The notes under the pieces were generated by a model. It was not told the origin of the DNA and searched no databases. It was given only the letters and a program-made list of their open reading frames with translations. A program made the position numbers and the translations under genes. A stretch of DNA of 34,980 bases from Deltaproteobacteria bacterium (GTDB lineage: Bacteria > Myxococcota_A > UBA9160 > UBA4427): positions 1 to 34,980 of the forward strand of contig DRKE01000369.1 of assembly GCA_011051925.1 (NCBI GenBank), read 5' to 3'. Below are positions 18,238-28,397 of the stretch, piece by piece (the stretch's first letter is position 1; each line of letters begins with the position of its first letter).

Positions 18238-20226
18238 TTGGGCTCACGAGCCGTCTTCGAAAGAAATCTCGCCGCGATCCGCAAGCGGAGCCCGCAGCTC
18301 GCGGACGCCCTGGCGAAGACGGATGCCGCGGGGATCGAGGAAGTCGAAGGACCACGCGGCGCCGTCGTCCTGCGCGAACGGGGCGTGCTTCTCGGATCCG
18401 CCTACGATCCGAAGCGGGAGGCGGAACAGATCGCCGAGACCATGGCTTCGGAACCCGCCGACATCATGGTCGCGATCGGATTCGGCCTGGGCGACCAGTT
18501 CCCGCACTATTGCGAGCAGAACCCGGCGACCGTGATCGTCTTCGAGCCCTCGGTGGCGCGGCTCCGAGCAGCACTCCATCGCTTCTGCTTGACGAATCTC
18601 TATGCGACGAATCGGGATTTCTACATCACGACGGATCTCGAACACTTCTCCCGCCTCCTCGATCATCGCTATTTCCCCGGCCTGCGCATCCGGGTCTTCC
18701 CGCATCCCGCCGTGCTCCGACTCGACCCCGAGGCCGTCGGGCGGGCGGTCGAACGGACCCGTCGCGTGAAGGACGCCGCCGACACGGGAAGGATCACGAC
18801 GATCGAACGAATGATGCCCTGGGCACGCCTGGTCGCGGGAAATGGCCGGCGGATCGCTTCCTCCGCGAGCCTTCGCGCGCTGGTGGGTCCCTTCGAAGGC
18901 AAGCCCGCCGTCATCGTCGCCGCCGGACCTTCCCTCGACAAGCAACTCCCCCTCCTGAAGGAGCGGGAAGACCACGTTCTCATCATCGCCATCGGCCAGA
19001 CCGTGAAGGCCCTCGCCGCCGCAGGGATCACGCCGCATCTCGTACATGTCCTCGAAAGCCGGAACGTCTCCCATCAGTTGACGGACGGGGGCGATTCGCG
19101 GGAGCTGAACGTCGTGCTCTCCCCGGATTGCCATCCAGCCATCTACGACGTCCCGGTTCGCGGTTCCTTCGTCGCGACACCGAGCGTCAATCCGATGGGA
19201 GCCTGGATCGAGACGGTTCGCGGAGACCCCTGCCTCACGATCGGCGGGGGTACGGTCGCCCTGGGTGCCGTTGCCGTCGCACAGGCCCTCGGGTCGGATC
19301 CGGTCATGTTGATCGGCCAGGATCTCGCGTTCACCGAAGGGCGTGCCTACGCGAAGAATTCGGCCTACGACTTCGTCGGCGTCGAGCTTTCGGAAGACGG
19401 AGAGTGTTCCTTCACGAACGGGAAGCGGAAGGTCGCCCTGCTCGGCGACGAAGACGTCGACCGGGTTCGCGATCGGTTCTCCCGATCCGACGTGGTCTGG
19501 GTCGACGGCTGGCACGAAGGCGAGCGGGTTCCGACCTGGCGCGCCTACGCCTCGTTCATCGAGCAGTATCGCGACGCGGGACTCTTCCTGGCCCAGTCGG
19601 GAATCCGACTGGTGAACTGCACCGAAGGGGGCGCGCGCATCCCCGGAATCGAGCACCTCGCTTTTCGAGAAGTCCTGGACGCGCTTCCGAGCGACTCCCT
19701 GGAGGCTTTCGCGACGATCGATCGCGCCTTCCGCGAGGCACCGCGACACGACCTCTCCGATTTCGCGGACGCGATCCGGAAGGCGCGCCGATCCCTCGAG
19801 CGGATCGAGCAGGAGTCCAGGAAGGCCCTCCGCTTCGCGAAGCGAAACGGGTCGAGGCTTCTCCGGGGGAAGGACGACCAACAGACCATCGACGTGCTCC
19901 GTCGGCTGGCTCGCCATGAGAAGAAGCTCCGAACGCAACTGGATCGGATGCCCTGGCTCGACGCGCTCGTCCAGCCGGAGATCTACAGCGCGATGGCCGC
20001 ATCCCGGAGGACCGAGCGCCAGGACCCCGGCCTCGAGGAACTTCTCGAGGAGTCACTCTTCCTCTTCGAAGCCGTCTGCCATGGGGTCGTACGCGCGCGA
20101 TCCTGGTTCGATCACTTCGAGGCTTCCTTCGACGAGGGAGCGGGCAACGGGGCCGGCCCGGATCGGCGAGAGGGAAAACCGGTCCGGCGGACCGATTCCC
20201 CGGATCTCGCGGCCGTCGCGCCCTGA
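18238..20226 (+). CDS. DUF115 / motility-associated (Maf-like) glycosyltransferase; TTG start
   Basis: GKPAVIVAAGPSLDKQLPLLKE...IIAIGQTVKALAAAGITPHLVHVLE..., IGGGTVALGAVAVAQALGSDPVMLIGQDLAFTEGRAYA; TTG at 18238 preceded by GGGAGGAAA. Confidence 0.88.
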   Translation: MGSRAVFERNLAAIRKRSPQLADALAKTDAAGIEEVEGPRGAVVLRERGVLLGSAYDPKREAEQIAETMASEPADIMVAIGFGLGDQFPHYCEQNPATVIVFEPSVARLRAALHRFCLTNLYATNRDFYITTDLEHFSRLLDHRYFPGLRIRVFPHPAVLRLDPEAVGRAVERTRRVKDAADTGRITTIERMMPWARLVAGNGRRIASSASLRALVGPFEGKPAVIVAAGPSLDKQLPLLKEREDHVLIIAIGQTVKALAAAGITPHLVHVLESRNVSHQLTDGGDSRELNVVLSPDCHPAIYDVPVRGSFVATPSVNPMGAWIETVRGDPCLTIGGGTVALGAVAVAQALGSDPVMLIGQDLAFTEGRAYAKNSAYDFVGVELSEDGECSFTNGKRKVALLGDEDVDRVRDRFSRSDVVWVDGWHEGERVPTWRAYASFIEQYRDAGLFLAQSGIRLVNCTEGGARIPGIEHLAFREVLDALPSDSLEAFATIDRAFREAPRHDLSDFADAIRKARRSLERIEQESRKALRFAKRNGSRLLRGKDDQQTIDVLRRLARHEKKLRTQLDRMPWLDALVQPEIYSAMAASRRTERQDPGLEELLEESLFLFEAVCHGVVRARSWFDHFEASFDEGAGNGAGPDRREGKPVRRTDSPDLAAVAP

Positions 20227-20258: not shown

Positions 20259-22052
20259 TCATGCGTTCCTGATCCCCGCGATCCGGTCGGCGATTCCCTT
20301 CGCATCGAGACCGTAGGCCGCCTCGAGTTCGGCGTTGCTTCCCGCTTCGATGAAGCTCGCTGGAAGACCGATCTGGACGAGTTCCCGGTCGTTCTCCCCG
20401 GCAGAGAAAAGCAGGGAAGCGACCGCCGATCCGACCCCTCCGTCGAGAACGGCTTCTTCGACCGTGACGACGCGAGCATGGTCGCGGATCTTCTCGAGGA
20501 GCGCCGCTTCGGGAAGGGGCTTCAGTCTCCGCAGGTTGACGACTCGTGCCTCGATTCCCCTGTTCGCGAGAAGCTCCGATGCCTCGAGACAGGCCCGGAC
20601 CTTGTTGCCGACGGCGACGATCGCCACGTCCGGACCGTCTCGAACGATCTCGGGCTCGAAGAGTGTCCCGCCGCGGGCATCTTCGGCGGCGGGATCGATC
20701 GAATCCGCTGGTCCGTAGGGCATCATGACCAGGACGGGCCCCTCGATCGTTTCGAGAATCTCCCGGACCATCGCCCGCGCCTCATGGCGGTCCTTCGGAT
20801 AGAAGATCTCCAGATTCGGGATCGGGCGCAGATAGGCGATGTCGTAGATGCCATGGTGGGTGGGATTGTCGTAGCCGCTGAAGCCGCTCCGATACGAGAG
20901 CATCAGACAGGGACGATTCGCGAAAGCCACGTCGTGGATGATCTGATCGAAAGCACGCTGCAGGAAGGTCGACTGATAGGCGATGATCGGCAGCTTCCCG
21001 GCCAGGGAGAACCCCACGCACATGGAGAGCGCGTGTTGTTCTTCCATCCCGGGATCGAAACAGCGTTCCGGGTACTTCTCGAAGACTCCAGCCAGGCCTG
21101 TCGCGTAGAGCGTCGAGGGCGTGATGCAGACCGCATCGCGATTCGCCGCCATGAAGCCGTCGATCACTTCCGCGACCACCTCGGGATAGCCGGGAGCGGG
21201 CGTCGAGGCATCCCGCGGCGTGCCGGACACCGGATCGAAGGGAAAGGAGAAATGCAACCGGAAGGGATGATCGTCGGCCGGGGCCCAGCCCTTTCCCTTG
21301 ACCGTGCGCGCATGCACGAGGCTGAGCCCGTCTGCCGCCTTGGCTGCCTCGAGGGCTTCCATCAGGTCCCCGATCGAATGCCCATCGACGCGCCCGAGAT
21401 AATTCGCGCCGAGACTCCCGAAATAATCCCTTGCCCGCCCCGCCTCGCCCTGCAACATCTCGTGAAAGGCACCGAATCCGGGACTGATCGCATAGCCATT
21501 GTCGTTCAGGAGAACGATCAGGTTCGTCTTTTCGACGATCGCATGGTTGAAGGCTTCGAGGGAGATCCCCTCGACGAAGGCGCCATCGCCCACCGTCGCG
21601 ACGACATGGGAGGGATCATGGTCGAGCTTCCGTGCCAGCGCCAATCCCAGCCCCACGGAAATGGCGGTACCCGCATGAGAAGACTCGATCAGGTCGTGAG
21701 GGCTTTCGGTCGGCGTCAGGAAACGATTCATTCCGCCATGGCGGTTCAGTGACGGAAAGAGGCCAGCTCGTCCGGTGAGCAACTTGTGCGTGTAGCCCTG
21801 ATGACCGGTATCGAAGAGGAGTGCGTCCCGGGGCGTCTCGAAACAGGCGTGGAGAGCGATCGTCAATTCGACCGTCCCGAGGTTGGCTCCGATATGGCCT
21901 CCCGTCTTCGAGACATGGTCGAGCAGGAAACGCCGGACCTGCGTCGCCAGATCTTCCAGCTCGGACAGTCCGCATCGACGCAGCGGCGATGGATCCGCGA
22001 GCCGTGTCAATTCGATCGGGCCCGCCTCGTGGATCGGGAGTTGTGCACTCAA
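20259..22052 (-). CDS. 1-deoxy-D-xylulose-5-phosphate synthase-like transketolase
   Basis: VSKTGGHIGANLGTVELTIALHACFETPRDALLFDTGHQGYTHKLLTGR, GDGAFVEGISLEAFNHA, GMEEQHALSMCVGFSLAGKLPIIAYQSTFLQRAFDQIIHDVAF, NPTHHGIYDIAYLRPIPNLEI. Confidence 0.92.
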   Translation of the reverse strand: MSAQLPIHEAGPIELTRLADPSPLRRCGLSELEDLATQVRRFLLDHVSKTGGHIGANLGTVELTIALHACFETPRDALLFDTGHQGYTHKLLTGRAGLFPSLNRHGGMNRFLTPTESPHDLIESSHAGTAISVGLGLALARKLDHDPSHVVATVGDGAFVEGISLEAFNHAIVEKTNLIVLLNDNGYAISPGFGAFHEMLQGEAGRARDYFGSLGANYLGRVDGHSIGDLMEALEAAKAADGLSLVHARTVKGKGWAPADDHPFRLHFSFPFDPVSGTPRDASTPAPGYPEVVAEVIDGFMAANRDAVCITPSTLYATGLAGVFEKYPERCFDPGMEEQHALSMCVGFSLAGKLPIIAYQSTFLQRAFDQIIHDVAFANRPCLMLSYRSGFSGYDNPTHHGIYDIAYLRPIPNLEIFYPKDRHEARAMVREILETIEGPVLVMMPYGPADSIDPAAEDARGGTLFEPEIVRDGPDVAIVAVGNKVRACLEASELLANRGIEARVVNLRRLKPLPEAALLEKIRDHARVVTVEEAVLDGGVGSAVASLLFSAGENDRELVQIGLPASFIEAGSNAELEAAYGLDAKGIADRIAGIRNA

Positions 22053-22088
22053 ATCGGATTCCCCTCGGCCCGCGTCGGATCGGGGCCC

Positions 22089-22098
22089 TGACCGGTCA
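22089..22098. promoter_or_regulatory. 10-bp perfect palindrome TGACCGGTCA upstream of the DXS-like gene
   Basis: Self-complementary; 37 nt upstream of the ATG at 22052 in the divergent intergenic region. Confidence 0.3.
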
Positions 22099-22309
22099 TC
22101 GGGAAAGCCCTTGTTTTTCTTTACATTGCGCCGGGAAGGCGCGGCTCGGTTGCCGGACCCGGCCGAGCCGGCATGACACCCGGCACGAACTCCGGAGAAC
22201 CCCCCAGAAAATCCGTCTCCCGATCGGAAAGACCGAGCGGATCCGCAATTTTGGATCTCCTCGAATCACGCCATCTGCCGATAGGCAGGGGGAACGCAGG
22301 GAGAGAAGC

Positions 22310-22363
22310 ATGACGACACGCAGGGGCAACCGACCTCTTCTTCCGCGAAGCCCGGAAGCATGA
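22310..22363 (+). CDS. Putative leader peptide / small ORF MTTRRGNRPLLPRSPEA overlapping the ATP-grasp start
   Basis: ATG 22310 with AGGGAG 6 nt upstream; 17 sense codons; stop TGA 22361-22363 overlaps ATG 22360-22362 of the next gene (ATGA). Confidence 0.45.
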   Translation: MTTRRGNRPLLPRSPEA

Positions 22364-23694
22364 CCGGAAACGCGCGAACGCTCGTCGTTCTGGGCGCGAG
22401 TACCGATCAGCTCTTCCTGATCGAGACGGCGCAGGCACTCGGCCTGCGTGTCCTCGCCGTGGACCGGGATGCCGACGCCCCCGGGTTTGCCGTGGCCGAG
22501 GAATCGGCGCTCATCAGCACCCGGGACGTCGCCGGGATCTGCGCTCATCTCGATCGACTCGAGAAGGACGAAGGCGCGGTCTTCGCGGGGGTCACGACGA
22601 TGGGAAGCGACATTCCCGAGATCGTCGCCGCGATCGCCGGGCATCTGGGGACGCCCTCCATTCCCCTCGAAGCGGCTCGATTGACCGTCGACAAGTTCGC
22701 GATGAAGGTGCGTCTTCGCGAATGCTCGATTCCGATCCCCTGGTTCCGGGAAGTTCCCGGCGTGGAAGACCTGCTCGAGGTGATCGCGGATCGAGGACTT
22801 CCCCTCGTCATCAAACCGATCGACCGCTCGGGGTCCCGGGGCGTCTTCTTCCTCCGCCCGGGCTGCGACCCCACGGATCTCTTCCAGAAGGCGAAGGCCT
22901 TTTCGTTCTCGGGTCGCGTCCAGGTCGAGGAATATCTTCCCGGGCCCCAGATCAGCACGGAAACGATCCTCTACGGTGGGCGGGCGGTCACCCCGGGTTT
23001 CGCCGATCGGAACTACGACACCTTCGAGCGGTTCCTTCCCCAGATCATGGAAAACGGAGGATGGGTCCCTTCCCTCCTCTCGGCCGAGGAACGGAAGCAG
23101 GTGGAAGAGCTGGTCGTCTCGGCTTCCCTCGCATTGGGCATCTCGGAGGGCGTCACGAAGGGGGACGTCGTGATGACACCCGAGGGCCCCAGGATCATCG
23201 AGATTGCCGCCCGCCTGAGCGGCGGTGACTTCTGCGCGGGACTGGTCCCTCTCGGATCGGGCGTCAACTACGTCCGGACCGCGATCCAGATCGCGATCGG
23301 CGAGACGCCGGATCTCGACGCCCTCGCACCCCGTTTCGAGAGAGCCGTCGCGAATCGTTATTTCTTTCCCGAACCGGGCCGTCTCGTCCGGATCGAGGGC
23401 GTCGAAGCCATTCGCGCGAGGCCCTGGCTCCACAAACTCGAATTCTGGTACCGACCCGGGGAGATCGTTCCCGAAAGCCTCAGCCATGCCCATCGGTTCG
23501 GGGTCTTCGTCGTGAGCGCGCCGGATCGCGCGACGGCCCAGGCAAGGGTCGACGAGGTCTACGACACGATCCGGATCGTGACGAGGCCCGAGAAGGCAGC
23601 CTCGAGGACCCGTCCGGAATCCTCGTTCCCGCCGGACAGGCCATCGGCCGTCGCGACCCGCCCCGGGGCGATCGCGTCCGGGACTCGAGGATGA
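22360..23694 (+). CDS. ATP-grasp domain protein 1 (carbamoyl-phosphate-synthase-like fold)
   Basis: RTLVVLGASTDQLFLIETAQALGLRVLAVDRDADAPGFA..., PLVIKPIDRSGSRGVFFL, QVEEYLPGPQISTETI, IIEIAARLSGGDF. Confidence 0.92.
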   Translation: MTGNARTLVVLGASTDQLFLIETAQALGLRVLAVDRDADAPGFAVAEESALISTRDVAGICAHLDRLEKDEGAVFAGVTTMGSDIPEIVAAIAGHLGTPSIPLEAARLTVDKFAMKVRLRECSIPIPWFREVPGVEDLLEVIADRGLPLVIKPIDRSGSRGVFFLRPGCDPTDLFQKAKAFSFSGRVQVEEYLPGPQISTETILYGGRAVTPGFADRNYDTFERFLPQIMENGGWVPSLLSAEERKQVEELVVSASLALGISEGVTKGDVVMTPEGPRIIEIAARLSGGDFCAGLVPLGSGVNYVRTAIQIAIGETPDLDALAPRFERAVANRYFFPEPGRLVRIEGVEAIRARPWLHKLEFWYRPGEIVPESLSHAHRFGVFVVSAPDRATAQARVDEVYDTIRIVTRPEKAASRTRPESSFPPDRPSAVATRPGAIASGTRG

Positions 23695-23695
23695 A

Positions 23696-24916
23696 ATGGT
23701 GACGGTACCCGTCCGCTCGGGAGCCCTCGAATGGATCCACGTCGATTGCCCGCTCTGCGGGGCCGACGATGCCGAACCCGTCTATGAACGTGACCACGAG
23801 ACCGGTTCGACCCTCGGTCGACTCCGCAAGATCGACGTCCTCTGCCGCCGATGCGGATTCATGTACACCGACCCGCGACCGTCAGCCGCGGACATGCGTC
23901 GCTATTATGCGGAGGCCAGCGGCGCTTCGGGAAGCGTCTTCCACGCGATGGAGCCGGGCTCTCGGCTGCGCGGATTGATCGAGGAGCGTGCGGCCTTCAT
24001 GCAACCGCTCGTCGCTTCCCACTTCGGATCGGGACCCGGCGCGATCCTCGACATCGGATGCGCGACCGGCGACCTGCTCGAACACCTCGATCTTCCGGAA
24101 TGGCACAAGGCCGGGCTCGAGCCTTCGGCCAGAGCCTCCGCGACAGCCCGGACGCGCGGCCTCGAAGTCGAATGCGGGGATCTCGAGTCGACGTCGCTTC
24201 CCGACCGGAGCTTCGACGTCATCACATGCATCAGCGTGCTCGAACACGTCCACGATCTCCGGGCCTCGGTCGGACGGATCCGGCAGAGCCTCCGACCCGG
24301 AGGCCTGGCCTTCGTCGAAGTCCCCGACTCGACGCGGCCCGTGGCGCAGATCGCGGAGTTCTTTTCCTTCGAGCATCTCTCCCATTTCACGCGGGGAACG
24401 CTGGTCCGCTGTCTCGCGGAGGCCGGACTCGAAGCGATCGCCTTCGACGAACAGGTCGGCCTTCCCAACCTGCGCGTATGCGCACGGCGAAGCGAGCAGA
24501 TTCCCGCAAAGGCCGCCTTCGGAACGGACGATGCCGAAGCGCTTCGCCGGGCCATCGCTCGCTATCGTCGGCAACGCGAGGCCTTCGCGGAGACGCTCAC
24601 CCGCCGGCTGAACGATCGGGTCGACCGCTGGGCGACCCGGGATGCCCGCGTGGCGGTCTACGGCGCGGGCATGCACACGCGTTTCCTGATGGAGGTCGTC
24701 GATCTCGGCCGATCGGTCACATGTCTTCTCGACAGCGATCCGCGCAAGGCGGGAAGTTCGTTTCTCGGCTGGCGGGTCTTCGGACCGGACGACATCCCGC
24801 GACTCGGGCTGGACGCGATCCTGATTTCGACCAATGCCTTCGAGGAGGAGGTCTACTCGGCCATCGCCCCCACGGCGCGCGCACACGCGATCGAGGTCGT
24901 GCGGTGTTACGGATGA
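23696..24916 (+). CDS. Zinc-ribbon plus SAM methyltransferase plus C-terminal Rossmann-like domain (sugar C-methyltransferase-like)
   Basis: CPLCG...CRRCGFMYTDPRP; GAILDIGCATGDLLEHL; FDVITCISVLEHVHDL; C-terminal VAVYGAGMHTRFLMEVVDLGRSVTCLLDSDPRKAGSSFLGWRVF. Confidence 0.88.
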   Translation: MVTVPVRSGALEWIHVDCPLCGADDAEPVYERDHETGSTLGRLRKIDVLCRRCGFMYTDPRPSAADMRRYYAEASGASGSVFHAMEPGSRLRGLIEERAAFMQPLVASHFGSGPGAILDIGCATGDLLEHLDLPEWHKAGLEPSARASATARTRGLEVECGDLESTSLPDRSFDVITCISVLEHVHDLRASVGRIRQSLRPGGLAFVEVPDSTRPVAQIAEFFSFEHLSHFTRGTLVRCLAEAGLEAIAFDEQVGLPNLRVCARRSEQIPAKAAFGTDDAEALRRAIARYRRQREAFAETLTRRLNDRVDRWATRDARVAVYGAGMHTRFLMEVVDLGRSVTCLLDSDPRKAGSSFLGWRVFGPDDIPRLGLDAILISTNAFEEEVYSAIAPTARAHAIEVVRCYG

Positions 24917-26028
24917 ACCGGGGCGGAACCCCGCGAAGGAACGACCCACGGAAGAGCCTGCTCGTCTACGGAGCCGGACGGAACCAGCTGCCCCTTCTCG
25001 CAGCCGGAAGGCGCAGGGGATGGCGCATCATCGCGATCGACCGTGACGCCGGAGCGCCCGGCCGCTCCCTCGCCGACCGTTTCCTGTGTCTCAGCCTGCG
25101 CGATCACGAAGCGATCGTGAAGGAACTGGCGTCCGAGAAGATCGTCGGGGTGGTCGCGCGAATCACCGATCACGTCGGCCTCGAGTCCGCCTGCCGGATC
25201 GCCCGTGACCAGGGTCTCGCCTCCGTCTGTCCCGGTCTCTTCGCCGCGGCGACCCACAAGACGGCCCTGGCCCGCCAGTGCCGACGCGCTGGCCTGCGCA
25301 CCCCCGAACGCCGTTCAGCGAGTGATCCGGACCTCTTCGAGAAGGGCCCCATCCTGTTGCGACCCGACGTGACGATCCGGGGGAAGGCCGGCATCCGCCG
25401 GGTCCGGTCCGTGGAAGCCCTCGAACTCGCGCTTCCCGAGACCCGTTCGCGATCGGGAAACGGAGAGGTCGACCTCGCGGATTGGATCGACGGCACGGAC
25501 GTCTCGATTCTCGTCCAGCTCGATCGGGGCCACGGACGGCGACTCGCCTTGTGGGACGAGTGGGTCGCACTCGATGCCGAGGGGATGATCCGGGGCGTCG
25601 GCTGCGGCATGCCCTCGGTCTTCGAGGAGGACCCGACCTCGATCGATCGGGTCATCGACCGATTGGCCCGCGCCTTTCCCGAAAGCCGTGGCCTGATCGC
25701 CCTCTCCCTTCGCATCGACGCGGCGAACCGGCCCTGGATGATCGAGATCCATCTGGGAATCGGCGGCGACGGCATCGCGGACCGCCTCCTGCCCGCGGCA
25801 CTGCCGGGTTTCGATGCGTTCGAGCTCCTCGCCCGGACGCAGGCCGGCGAACGGGTCGACCCGCCGCCTGCTCGCGCGCGACCTCGCGCATTGCTGCGGG
25901 ATGGGGAGGGCGGAGCATGGCGGATCGTCGAAGCCCGGGATGCCGCGACGCTGCGCGCCCGATGTCTCGCCTCGCTGCCCCGGGATTGGGAGGCGCCCCG
26001 GGGCCTGCTTCCGGGGACGAAGCCATGA
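24913..26028 (+). CDS. ATP-grasp-like protein 2 (motif-degenerate paralogue)
   Basis: KSLLVYGAGRNQLPLLAAGRRRGWRIIAIDRDAGAPGRSLAD matches ATP-grasp 1 at the N terminus; 4-bp ATGA overlap with the upstream stop. Trimmed from ORF 23851..26028. Confidence 0.85.
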   Translation: MNRGGTPRRNDPRKSLLVYGAGRNQLPLLAAGRRRGWRIIAIDRDAGAPGRSLADRFLCLSLRDHEAIVKELASEKIVGVVARITDHVGLESACRIARDQGLASVCPGLFAAATHKTALARQCRRAGLRTPERRSASDPDLFEKGPILLRPDVTIRGKAGIRRVRSVEALELALPETRSRSGNGEVDLADWIDGTDVSILVQLDRGHGRRLALWDEWVALDAEGMIRGVGCGMPSVFEEDPTSIDRVIDRLARAFPESRGLIALSLRIDAANRPWMIEIHLGIGGDGIADRLLPAALPGFDAFELLARTQAGERVDPPPARARPRALLRDGEGGAWRIVEARDAATLRARCLASLPRDWEAPRGLLPGTKP

Positions 26029-27218
26029 GACGCGGGGTCGTCCAGCTGGGCGCGGGTCCCGTCCAACGCGGGCTGCTCGAACGCTTCCGCGAAAACGGCC
26101 TGGTCCCGATCCTCGTCGACCGGAACGAGCGACCCGCCGGCCGCGTTCCCGGAAGCCTCCACGTTCGCGCGCCGATCGACGAGCCGCAGACGATCGTCCG
26201 GGCTCTTCAGGAAGCCCGGTCGGATCGGCGGCTGGCCGGAGTCGGGATCGGCGCCGTTCTCACGAGCACCGACCTCGGTGTCGCGAGCGTCCCGGTCGTC
26301 GCGAGAGCCCTCGACCTGCCGCATGCCTCGATCGATTCGATCGCCACGATGGACGACAAGGCCCTTGCGCGACGGGTGCTCTCCGAAGCGGGAGTCCGCG
26401 TACCGGAGGGATGGCTCGGCCGACGCCCCTGCGACATTCCCGCCCTCGAAACCGACCGCGAGTGGATCGTGAAACCCGTCGACTCTTCGGGCAGCCGCGG
26501 CGTCAGGCGCATCCGGGGCCCGGTCGCCCTGGCCCATGCGATCGAGAACGCCCTCGCCTTCAGCGACCGCTTCCTCGTCGAGGAATGCATCGACGGGATC
26601 CATCTCGACATCAACGGTCTGGTCATCGACGGCCGGTTCGAGCTGGTTTCGATCGGCCGGCGGCATTTCACGAGGCCCCCCGCCTGCGTGCCGATCCATG
26701 GCGGAATCGCCGGTGGCTGGAGCGCATCGCTCGCCGAAGAGGTCGTCCGGCTGATGCAGGCCTCCGTTGCGGCCTTCGACTATCGCCATGGCCCCGTGAA
26801 GGCCGATCTCATCCAGGACGAGCGCGGTCTCGTCGTCCTCGAACTGGCCGCCCGTTTCCATGGGGACGTCTTCTCCCATCACGTCGCCGAAGCAGCCGGA
26901 CGGCCTCCCGCCGCCCTCGTCTGGCTGGCGCGCCTGGGACTCTGCCCGAAGCCGGTGGAAGGACCCCGCCACGGGGGCTGGTTCGGCGTCTTCGCCGAGA
27001 AGGCCGGCACGATCCGGGCGATCGAGGGACTCGACGAGGTCCGCTCGCTTCCCGGCTTCCGGACCTGGATCCCCCGGCTCGGTCCGGGCGACCCGGTCGG
27101 CTCGCCCGAGGACAACCGAGCCCTCGTGGGCTTCGGGCTGATCGGTTTCGACCGGACGGAAGATCTCTGGGCGGAAGCCGATCGGCGGCGGCAGATGATC
27201 CGGGTGGCGCTCGACTGA
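26025..27218 (+). CDS. ATP-grasp domain protein 3
   Basis: GVVQLGAGPVQRGLLERFRENGLVPILVDRNERPAGRV..., WIVKPVDSSGSRGVRRI, FLVEECIDGIHLDINGL, VLELAARFHGDVF; ATGA overlap at 26025-26028. Confidence 0.92.
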   Translation: MRRGVVQLGAGPVQRGLLERFRENGLVPILVDRNERPAGRVPGSLHVRAPIDEPQTIVRALQEARSDRRLAGVGIGAVLTSTDLGVASVPVVARALDLPHASIDSIATMDDKALARRVLSEAGVRVPEGWLGRRPCDIPALETDREWIVKPVDSSGSRGVRRIRGPVALAHAIENALAFSDRFLVEECIDGIHLDINGLVIDGRFELVSIGRRHFTRPPACVPIHGGIAGGWSASLAEEVVRLMQASVAAFDYRHGPVKADLIQDERGLVVLELAARFHGDVFSHHVAEAAGRPPAALVWLARLGLCPKPVEGPRHGGWFGVFAEKAGTIRAIEGLDEVRSLPGFRTWIPRLGPGDPVGSPEDNRALVGFGLIGFDRTEDLWAEADRRRQMIRVALD

Positions 27219-27327
27219 TCGTCGAAGGGAAACGGTTCGGACGGACGGGTCCCGACCTGGACCGGCCAGGAGAATCCCGACCCGTCATCCGCGTCGAGCC
27301 AGGACGGGGCATCCGCCGGATCCCGCC

Positions 27328-28053
27328 CTATCCCATGAACTGTCCACCGTTCACGTTCAGGACCTGTCCCGTCACGAAGGCCGCGTCATCCGAGGCGAGA
27401 TAGACCGCCGCGGCGGCCACGTCGCCCACCTCGCCGATCCGGCCCAACGGAAGGCCTGCGGCGATCTCGCGCTCTTCGTCTTCGAGCAGGTGTTGGATCA
27501 TCTCCGTCCGGATGAAACCCGGCGAGATCGCGTTCACGCGAACGCCCATCGGCCCCAGGATCCGTGCACAGGATTTCGTGAGCGCGAGGATCGCGGCCTT
27601 CGAGGCCGAATAGTGCGGTGCTTTCGGTCCGCCGAACTGACCGCCGACGGAGGCGATGTTGATCACGACCCCCGAGCCCGCGGCTTCGAAGCGACGGGCG
27701 GCGGCCTGGGTCGCAAAGAACGTGCCCTTGAGATTCGTGTCGAGGGTCCGCTCGTAGCTTGCCTCCGTGATCTCCAGGAAGGGTTCCTGCGCGAGATGAC
27801 CGGCGTTGTTCACCAGGATGTCGAGGCTCCCCAGGCATTCGTCGATCGTTCCGAAGACCTTTTCGAGGCTCGACAGCTTCGTCACGTCGAGTTCGAGACA
27901 GAGCGCGTCGCCGAGCTCCCGGGCGAGCGCACGAGCGCGTTCTTCTTCCCTGCGATAGGTGACGACGACCCGGGCGCCCTCCTCGTGGAAGGCGCGGGCG
28001 ATCTCGGCGCCGATGCCCCGGGCTGAACCCGTGACGAGGGCGACGCGATCCAT
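27328..28053 (-). CDS. Short-chain dehydrogenase/reductase (FabG-like)
   Basis: VALVTGSARGIGAEIARAF, LVNNAG, INIASVGG..HYSASKAAI, INPG-type ISPGFIRTEM. Confidence 0.95.
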   Translation of the reverse strand: MDRVALVTGSARGIGAEIARAFHEEGARVVVTYRREEERARALARELGDALCLELDVTKLSSLEKVFGTIDECLGSLDILVNNAGHLAQEPFLEITEASYERTLDTNLKGTFFATQAAARRFEAAGSGVVINIASVGGQFGGPKAPHYSASKAAILALTKSCARILGPMGVRVNAISPGFIRTEMIQHLLEDEEREIAAGLPLGRIGEVGDVAAAAVYLASDDAAFVTGQVLNVNGGQFMG

Positions 28054-28397
28054 CAGTCGACGACCGGCTCCCAGACGATCGAGCACGATTCTTCCTCCCG
28101 GCATGGGACCCCGTCTGCCCCGATCCCGGCATCGGACGCGGACGACACCGCCAATGCCTGATCCGAACGAAGGGCCGCAGCCCGATCGGGCGACGAGCCG
28201 CCCCTCCCGTCTATCGGCCGATTCCGTGCAAGACCGAGGGATAAGTGCGCGGAAAAAGAGGGCGATCGATCACGAGGGTGTGGCTGCGGAAAGGACCGGA
28301 GAGGGTCTCGGGCGTTCCCCGGAATCGCCCTGGCGTCGTTCCGGCCGGGAAGCCATGCCGACCGACCCATGCCCGACCGACAAGAGGGGGAAGTCGC

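Follow-up and report, generated by a model that had tools for sequence, protein, structure and literature searches.

What would bring three related ATP-grasp proteins and a methyltransferase together in one tightly packed operon? The question is raised by positions 22360–27218 of a 34,980-nucleotide stretch of DNA from a Deltaproteobacteria bacterium (hereafter the window), which is contig C369 of a metagenome-assembled genome (MAG) with 552 contigs and 4.4 Mb (GC 66%). A sequence-only reading had recognized there three ATP-grasp genes (AG1, AG2, AG3) and a methyltransferase gene (MT). We find that the module is wider than this operon, and that a MAF flagellin glycosyltransferase, a DXS-like thiamine-diphosphate (ThDP) enzyme, and a short-chain dehydrogenase (SDR) belong to it too (18.2–28.1 kb). 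The system is most likely a flagellin nonulosonate modification like that encoded by sfm in Shewanella, in a variant with a putative carboligase of DXS type and three ATP-grasps (two extra ligases). That the genes take part in nonulosonate flagellin glycosylation is very probable, whereas the specific chemistry proposed below has about an even chance of being right; the combined reading, that the genes form an accessory module for nonulosonic-acid (pseudaminic-acid-type) glycosylation of flagellin and work by that mechanism, is the one we favor, with some reserve. The features, from the open reading frame (ORF) listing and domain searches, are as follows.

22360–23694, + strand: AG1, 444 amino acids; ORF listing and codon-position GC, read directly
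23696–24916, + strand: MT, 406 amino acids; ORF listing and codon-position GC, read directly
24913–26028, + strand: AG2, 371 amino acids; gene selected by a codon-usage gene caller
26025–27218, + strand: AG3, 397 amino acids; gene selected by a codon-usage gene caller
18238–20226, + strand: MAF flagellin glycosyltransferase (MptE-like domain, PseD/Maf type); Pfam MptE-like 5.8e-31, NCBIfam FlagModPseD weak
20259–22052, − strand: DXS-type ThDP enzyme, 597 amino acids; Pfam DXP_synthase_N and transketolase domains
27328–28104, − strand: SDR (FabG-like); Pfam adh_short_C2 8.3e-69
22053–22359: intergenic region separating AG1 from the divergent DXS-like gene, where promoters are presumed to lie; from coordinates and sequence

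The four + strand genes, their coordinates, the 1-nt gap between AG1 and MT (23695), and the two 4-bp ATGA overlaps (24913–24916, MT/AG2; 26025–26028, AG2/AG3) were described in the sequence-only reading and are borne out by the ORF listing, codon-position GC, and the gene caller; in the mechanical ORF list, AG2 and AG3 lie inside longer ORFs with earlier start codons. The extent assigned to the module, 22360–27218, held for these four genes but missed the MAF upstream and the minus-strand DXS-like and SDR genes. Thiamine-pyrophosphate (TPP) enzyme, SDR, ATP-grasp, and S-adenosylmethionine (SAM) methyltransferase are clustered at 20259–28104, with the MAF gene adjacent. A search for flagellar promoters, including the region 22053–22359, found no excess of sigma-28 or sigma-54 sites over chance.

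Does this set of genes travel together? Relatives were found by scanning the contigs of named genomes with the single AG1 protein, a scan that picks up fairly close relatives only; a mixed-AG1 profile was too diverse for the purpose and was replaced. AG1 relatives in other phyla reach 66% identity, the value for the homologue in Magnetospirillum aberrantis. In that organism (L078; L numbers designate loci) AG1, AG2, AG3, the DXS-like enzyme, and the SDR occur together beside a flagellin gene, NeuB, and a CMP-transferase. The same five are found in the alphaproteobacterium nSSYDbin4 (L083), with MT, NeuB, and PseB, and a Falkowbacteria MAG (L084) has the gene run MT-AG2-AG3-SDR-DXS-AG1. A divergent version in a genome of the same order (L032) comprises MT, AG2-like, AG3-like, a split transketolase, SDR, and AG1; it adjoins genes identified by eye as flgD and flgE, and NeuB and MAF lie farther along the same contig. 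Neighborhood comparison, suggested by the sequence-only reading as a check, thus finds the trio co-conserved in L078, L083, and L084 and, in divergent form, in L032, and AG2 and AG3 are side by side in the same order in 5/5 loci having both. As to L084, a full triple-ATP-grasp module in a candidate-phylum MAG (Ca. Falkowbacteria) may be a binning error. Upstream of MT in L083 (4897–8697) are an AMP-ligase, a small unidentified protein, a DUF2172/DUF4910 protein, and an Antibiotic_NAT-type acetyltransferase, a region that we take to resemble the Cj1295 region of Campylobacter.

Among 29 AG1-type loci, which were reached through AG1 and some of which are cut by contig ends, an SDR is present in 25, nonulosonate genes in 20, and a ThDP enzyme in 16; NeuB, ThDP enzyme, and MAF are each found in 0/9 control loci with other ATP-grasps, a small set (n = 9) that includes same-genus ATP-grasps in unrelated contexts (L035, L037, L038). 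As a rule, AG1 relatives are found in nonulosonic-acid loci, several of which lie beside flagellin or flagellar genes. L160 has the run PseB-PseC-CMP-transferase-NeuB-PseG-MT-DXS-SDR-AG1 just before fleQ and fliF, and both PseB and PseC there score above the NCBIfam equivalog cut-offs; flagellin-like genes occur close to L161 and L162, and in genome G034 (L033) a set of pseudaminic-acid genes is accompanied by MAF, a ligase like AG1, and a homologue of MT. In the window's own genome there are flagellins, one NeuB (contig C424), and one MAF, that of the window, which is the genome's sole PF01973 protein. Gene content, protein families, conservation across phyla, and linkage to nonulosonate and flagellar genes are in this sense directly observed.

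These neighborhoods bear on two other explanations. One is that the decorated glycan sits on a surface polysaccharide rather than on flagellin, as might be supposed from AG1 loci that adjoin polysaccharide pyruvyltransferases and have no MAF (L086). We regard this as improbable, given that the only MAF of the genome adjoins the operon, that the genome has flagellins, and that the M. aberrantis trio lies beside a flagellin gene. The other, more improbable still, is that the genes have nothing to do with flagella and produce a natural product of the BacD or dapdiamide type, such as a small secreted peptide. In its favor, AG1 and AG3 resemble L-amino-acid ligases, and AG1 has weak NCBIfam matches to dapdiamide synthase and BacD; against this stand the adjoining MAF, the nonulosonate genes in 20/29 AG1-type loci, the flagellar neighbors, and a TPP enzyme joined with a CMP-transferase in one protein (see below), and export or carrier genes were not seen in the operon.

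Two further observations concern these loci. In L115 (9645–12389) a class-III aminotransferase and an ATP-grasp resembling AG1 form one protein of 914 amino acids, with NeuB and a CMP-transferase adjoining. A GH57-like protein (weak PF03065) recurs beside MAF or AG1 in nonulosonate loci (L033 4506–6839, L064 3738–6047, L084 11245–13158, and others), and no NCBIfam family matched it.

What kind of ligases are AG1, AG2, and AG3? The shared N-terminal pattern from which their relatedness had been proposed is present in AG1 (LGASTDQLFLIETAQALGLRVLAVDRDADAPG), AG2 (YGAGRNQLPLLAAGRRRGWRIIAIDRDAGAPG), and AG3 (LGAGPVQRGLLERFRENGLVPILVDRNERPAG), and the relationship is upheld by Pfam for AG1 and AG3 and by profile and structure comparison for AG2. 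AG1 and AG3 match Pfam ATP-grasp_3 and LAL_C2 above cut-off (for AG3, 5.4e-11 and 5.4e-12), are 26% identical, and keep the catalytic Lys/Glu positions (K112, K152, E190, and E281 in AG1; K112, K150, E186, and E273 in AG3). The nearest solved structures to AG1 are 4dim, BL00235, and BacD, and AG3 has a profile match to BL00235 (3.9e-26). Both are of the L-amino-acid-ligase type, and are predicted carboxylate-amine ligases. BL00235 and BacD (with the uncharacterized 4dim) are their nearest structural relatives, although distant ones (profile-level matches only), and the context in the window is that of a glycan, not of a dipeptide antibiotic. AG2 lacks LAL_C2 and has a weak PylC-like_N match as its sole Pfam signal; it is 29% identical to AG1 over the N-terminal half, and its profile aligns with that of AG1 at 99.5% hhalign probability. 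An AlphaFold model of AG2 built from 3 sequences was poor (mean predicted confidence, pLDDT, 50) and was set aside; one from 30 sequences reached pLDDT 89.6, with Foldseek PDB matches to PurK, PurT, and BL00235, and by this model AG2 is a divergent member with the ATP-grasp fold. A housekeeping identity as PurK, PurT, or biotin carboxylase, which the sequence-only reading had named as a possible refutation, is rejected for all three ATP-grasps, whose NCBIfam scores for these families are weak and far under the cut-offs.

The three were also thought to be products of a local triplication, and the tree rejects this. It separates AG1, AG2, and AG3, each grouping with counterparts in other phyla: twelve AG1 members form a clade with support 99/99, AG3 groups with L078, L083, L084, and L032 (100/97), and the AG2 clade has support 85/88 (100/99 for its core four), although long branches make it uncertain where the deviant AG2 of L032 belongs. 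Because each groups across phyla, the paralogy is old, and these are separately inherited subfamilies. Branch lengths in the window are 0.28 for AG1 (slow), 1.88 for AG2, and 3.17 for AG3 (fast); AG2 and AG3 would appear to be evolving as if their substrates vary. Close-type AG1 is found in the window only among 379 genomes of its own phylum, and the trio is rare, with AG3 proper in 2/317 genomes of the Magnetospirillum order. A congener (G001, L039) has the flanking P450, FabK-like, DUF1330, and symporter genes and lacks the island, and a scan of its genome found neither MAF nor NeuB. From such comparisons, the island was likely acquired horizontally.

The remaining enzymes suggest what the ligases might be supplied with. 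MT matches Pfam Methyltransf_23, has four invariant cysteines (18, 21, 50, and 53), and matches the profile of TylC3 (4rv9) over its full length (E 5e-29) and also that of TcaB9 (3ndi), in agreement with the sugar-C-methyltransferase type first assigned to it. Its predicted architecture (zinc-ribbon, SAM-methyltransferase, C-terminal Rossmann) is of the sugar 3-C-methyltransferase type. It shares the domain order of TylC3 and TcaB9/KijD1, but its C-terminal domain (Methyltransf_14) is weak, below the Pfam cut-off, and no TDP-sugar genes were seen adjoining it. Against the NCBIfam dxs equivalog model the DXS-like protein scores 505 bits, above the cut-off of 466. Since a far better-scoring DXS (803 bits) is encoded separately on contig C298, the window copy is a paralogue of the housekeeping enzyme. 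It retains the NDN, EQHA, STFLQR, and RxGxxGxDxxTH motifs, whereas YSTFL has become QSTFL (Tyr to Gln) and RFPRG has become MMPYGP, with the same type of change in its orthologues. The YSTFL Tyr and the RFPRG Arg are presumably substrate- and phosphate-contacting positions, as in Escherichia coli DXS, and we therefore infer an altered acceptor.

The ThDP enzyme is exchangeable. The partner is of DXS type in the window and in L077, L078, L080, L083, L084, L085, L088, and L160, a split transketolase in L032 and L162, and of acetolactate-synthase type in L111–L114. By Pfam, an 809-amino acid protein of L111 (8329–10758) combines in one chain a CMP-sugar cytidylyltransferase of the CMP-nonulosonate type and a TPP enzyme of the acetolactate-synthase type, and L112 and L113 are alike by tblastn. 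L161 (10253–13439) has a split phosphonopyruvate-/sulfopyruvate-decarboxylase-like ThDP enzyme, an Fe-alcohol dehydrogenase replacing the SDR, and a second NeuB, with AG1 and pse genes adjoining. A transaldolase-family protein stands beside AG1 in place of the ThDP enzyme in L045 and L046, and a B12/radical-SAM protein replaces it in L079. That different C–C-bond enzymes fill the same position in the locus is the main reason for suggesting that the ThDP enzyme acts as a carboligase in this module. The nonulosonate loci L045 (10937–13835) and L046 (7061–9917) also encode two sulfotransferases, identified by eye, and a cytidylyltransferase-methyltransferase fusion.

How might the enzymes work together? 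In the mechanism we propose, the DXS-like enzyme would decarboxylate pyruvate and pass the resulting two-carbon unit to an acceptor, either an aldehyde or a keto compound; MT would methylate the keto product, and the SDR would reduce the methylated product. MT fits such a product, in that sugar 3-C-methyltransferases act beside a ketone of the kind a ThDP enzyme would offer. AG1 would then activate the carboxylate of the product as an acyl phosphate and couple it to an amine on the nonulosonic acid or a precursor, AG3 and possibly AG2 would add further acyl or aminoacyl units, and MAF would move the finished CMP-sugar onto Ser/Thr of flagellin. Successive ligations on a methylated sugar or small molecule had been predicted from the operon alone; this is partly supported, by the relatedness of the ATP-grasps, the sugar-C-methyltransferase type of MT, and the co-conservation of the trio, but it was too vague, the context being nonulosonic-acid flagellin glycosylation.

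A less likely but still appreciable possibility is that the same flagellin pathway divides its labor differently: the sugar would be branched or extended by the ThDP enzyme, MT, and SDR, and the units attached by AG1–AG3 would be ordinary amino acids, of the kind carried by amino-acid-substituted nonulosonates. ThDP enzymes of the YerE type add two-carbon branches to keto sugars, MT resembles sugar 3-C-methyltransferases, and AG1 and AG3 resemble L-amino-acid ligases, all of which would suit such an arrangement. On the other hand, the pairing of the SDR with AG1 in 25/29 loci suggests that a product is handed over between the two, and the outer group of the corresponding Shewanella glycan is reported to be nitrogen-free, which argues against amino acids there.

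The sequence-only reading did not recognize the combination as a described pathway; a partly characterized relative exists, however, in Shewanella oneidensis. Its sfmABCDE genes (NeuB, TPP enzyme, SDR, methyltransferase, ATP-grasp, with MAF upstream) are needed for flagellin modification (PMC3765264). Deleting any of the first four brings flagellin near its unmodified mass, whereas deleting the last, the ATP-grasp, gives a slightly smaller mass shift with motility kept (PMC3765264). The glycan is a 274-Da mono-N-acetyl nonulosonate, a candidate bearer of a free amine, with a 236/250/264-Da group (C9H16O7 to C11H20O7) that is O-methylated and apparently nitrogen-free (PMC3765264). By our arithmetic C9H16O7 as an acyl group could be a saturated polyhydroxy acid, hexosyl-glycerol being another option. 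These data would fit the proposed set of carboligase, methyltransferase (C- or O-), reductase, and a ligase joining a carboxylate to a free amine of the nonulosonate. The window shares with sfm a TPP enzyme, SDR, SAM methyltransferase of ~400 amino acids, and ATP-grasp of ~410 amino acids, and both genomes encode MAF and a short synthase of the NeuB type. The sfm TPP enzyme is IlvB-type where that of the window is DXS-type, sfm has one ATP-grasp against three, and its NeuB is within the operon, as it is within the cluster in L078, L083, and L160. L114 (IlvB-type enzyme, SDR, AG1, MT, NeuB) is a closer look-alike of sfm than is the window. In Campylobacter jejuni, the flagellin nonulosonate pseudaminic acid likewise bears an O-methylated substituent of acyl type, di-O-methylglyceric acid, which the authors tie to Cj1295 alone, and no ATP-grasp is mentioned (PMC3068675). 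A search of the open-access literature for other nonulosonate/ATP-grasp clusters gave only the Shewanella paper and a single mention in one C. difficile paper.

Several points weigh against the accessory-module reading. The window AG2 lacks two normally conserved ATP-grasp residues (the second nucleotide-binding Lys is Arg150 and the Glu of the EE/EY motif is Ala189); residue comparison shows the Lys at position 150 kept in the orthologues of L078, L083, and L084. NeuB is on another contig (C424) and not in the operon, which makes the link in this genome an indirect one, and the AG1 loci L086, L087, L089, and L090 have no nonulosonate gene within reach, AG1 not being exclusive to the pathway. 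The Shewanella 264-Da group is easily lost in mass spectrometry, which is unusual for an amide, and the likeness of SfmE (SO_3265) to AG1 is one of domain and length as described, that of SfmB to the ThDP enzyme one of enzyme class. The substrates, the order of steps, the site of ligation, the activity of the window AG2, and the product are all predictions from sequence and context.

Viewed across these loci, the data hint at a general route of flagellar-nonulosonate decoration, which we put forward tentatively and with more doubt than confidence. A carboligase of interchangeable type (DXS, transketolase, acetolactate synthase, or perhaps also a phosphonopyruvate-decarboxylase-like enzyme or a transaldolase) would make a keto compound, an SDR would reduce it, and an ATP-grasp would couple it to the sugar; in modules of the window type, two more ATP-grasps would extend it to a multi-unit, peptide-like appendage. 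Automatic annotation would label the DXS-like gene of the window as housekeeping DXS, and caution is warranted, as DXS-like genes above the curated cut-off can be glycan genes. In the L111 protein, a ThDP enzyme and a CMP-sugar cytidylyltransferase are parts of a single chain. The chemistry of the 236–264-Da decoration of Shewanella was left unresolved (PMC3765264), and the comparison made here suggests that the ThDP enzyme, the SDR, and the ATP-grasp act jointly. M. aberrantis provides a tractable organism with the triple-ligase version.

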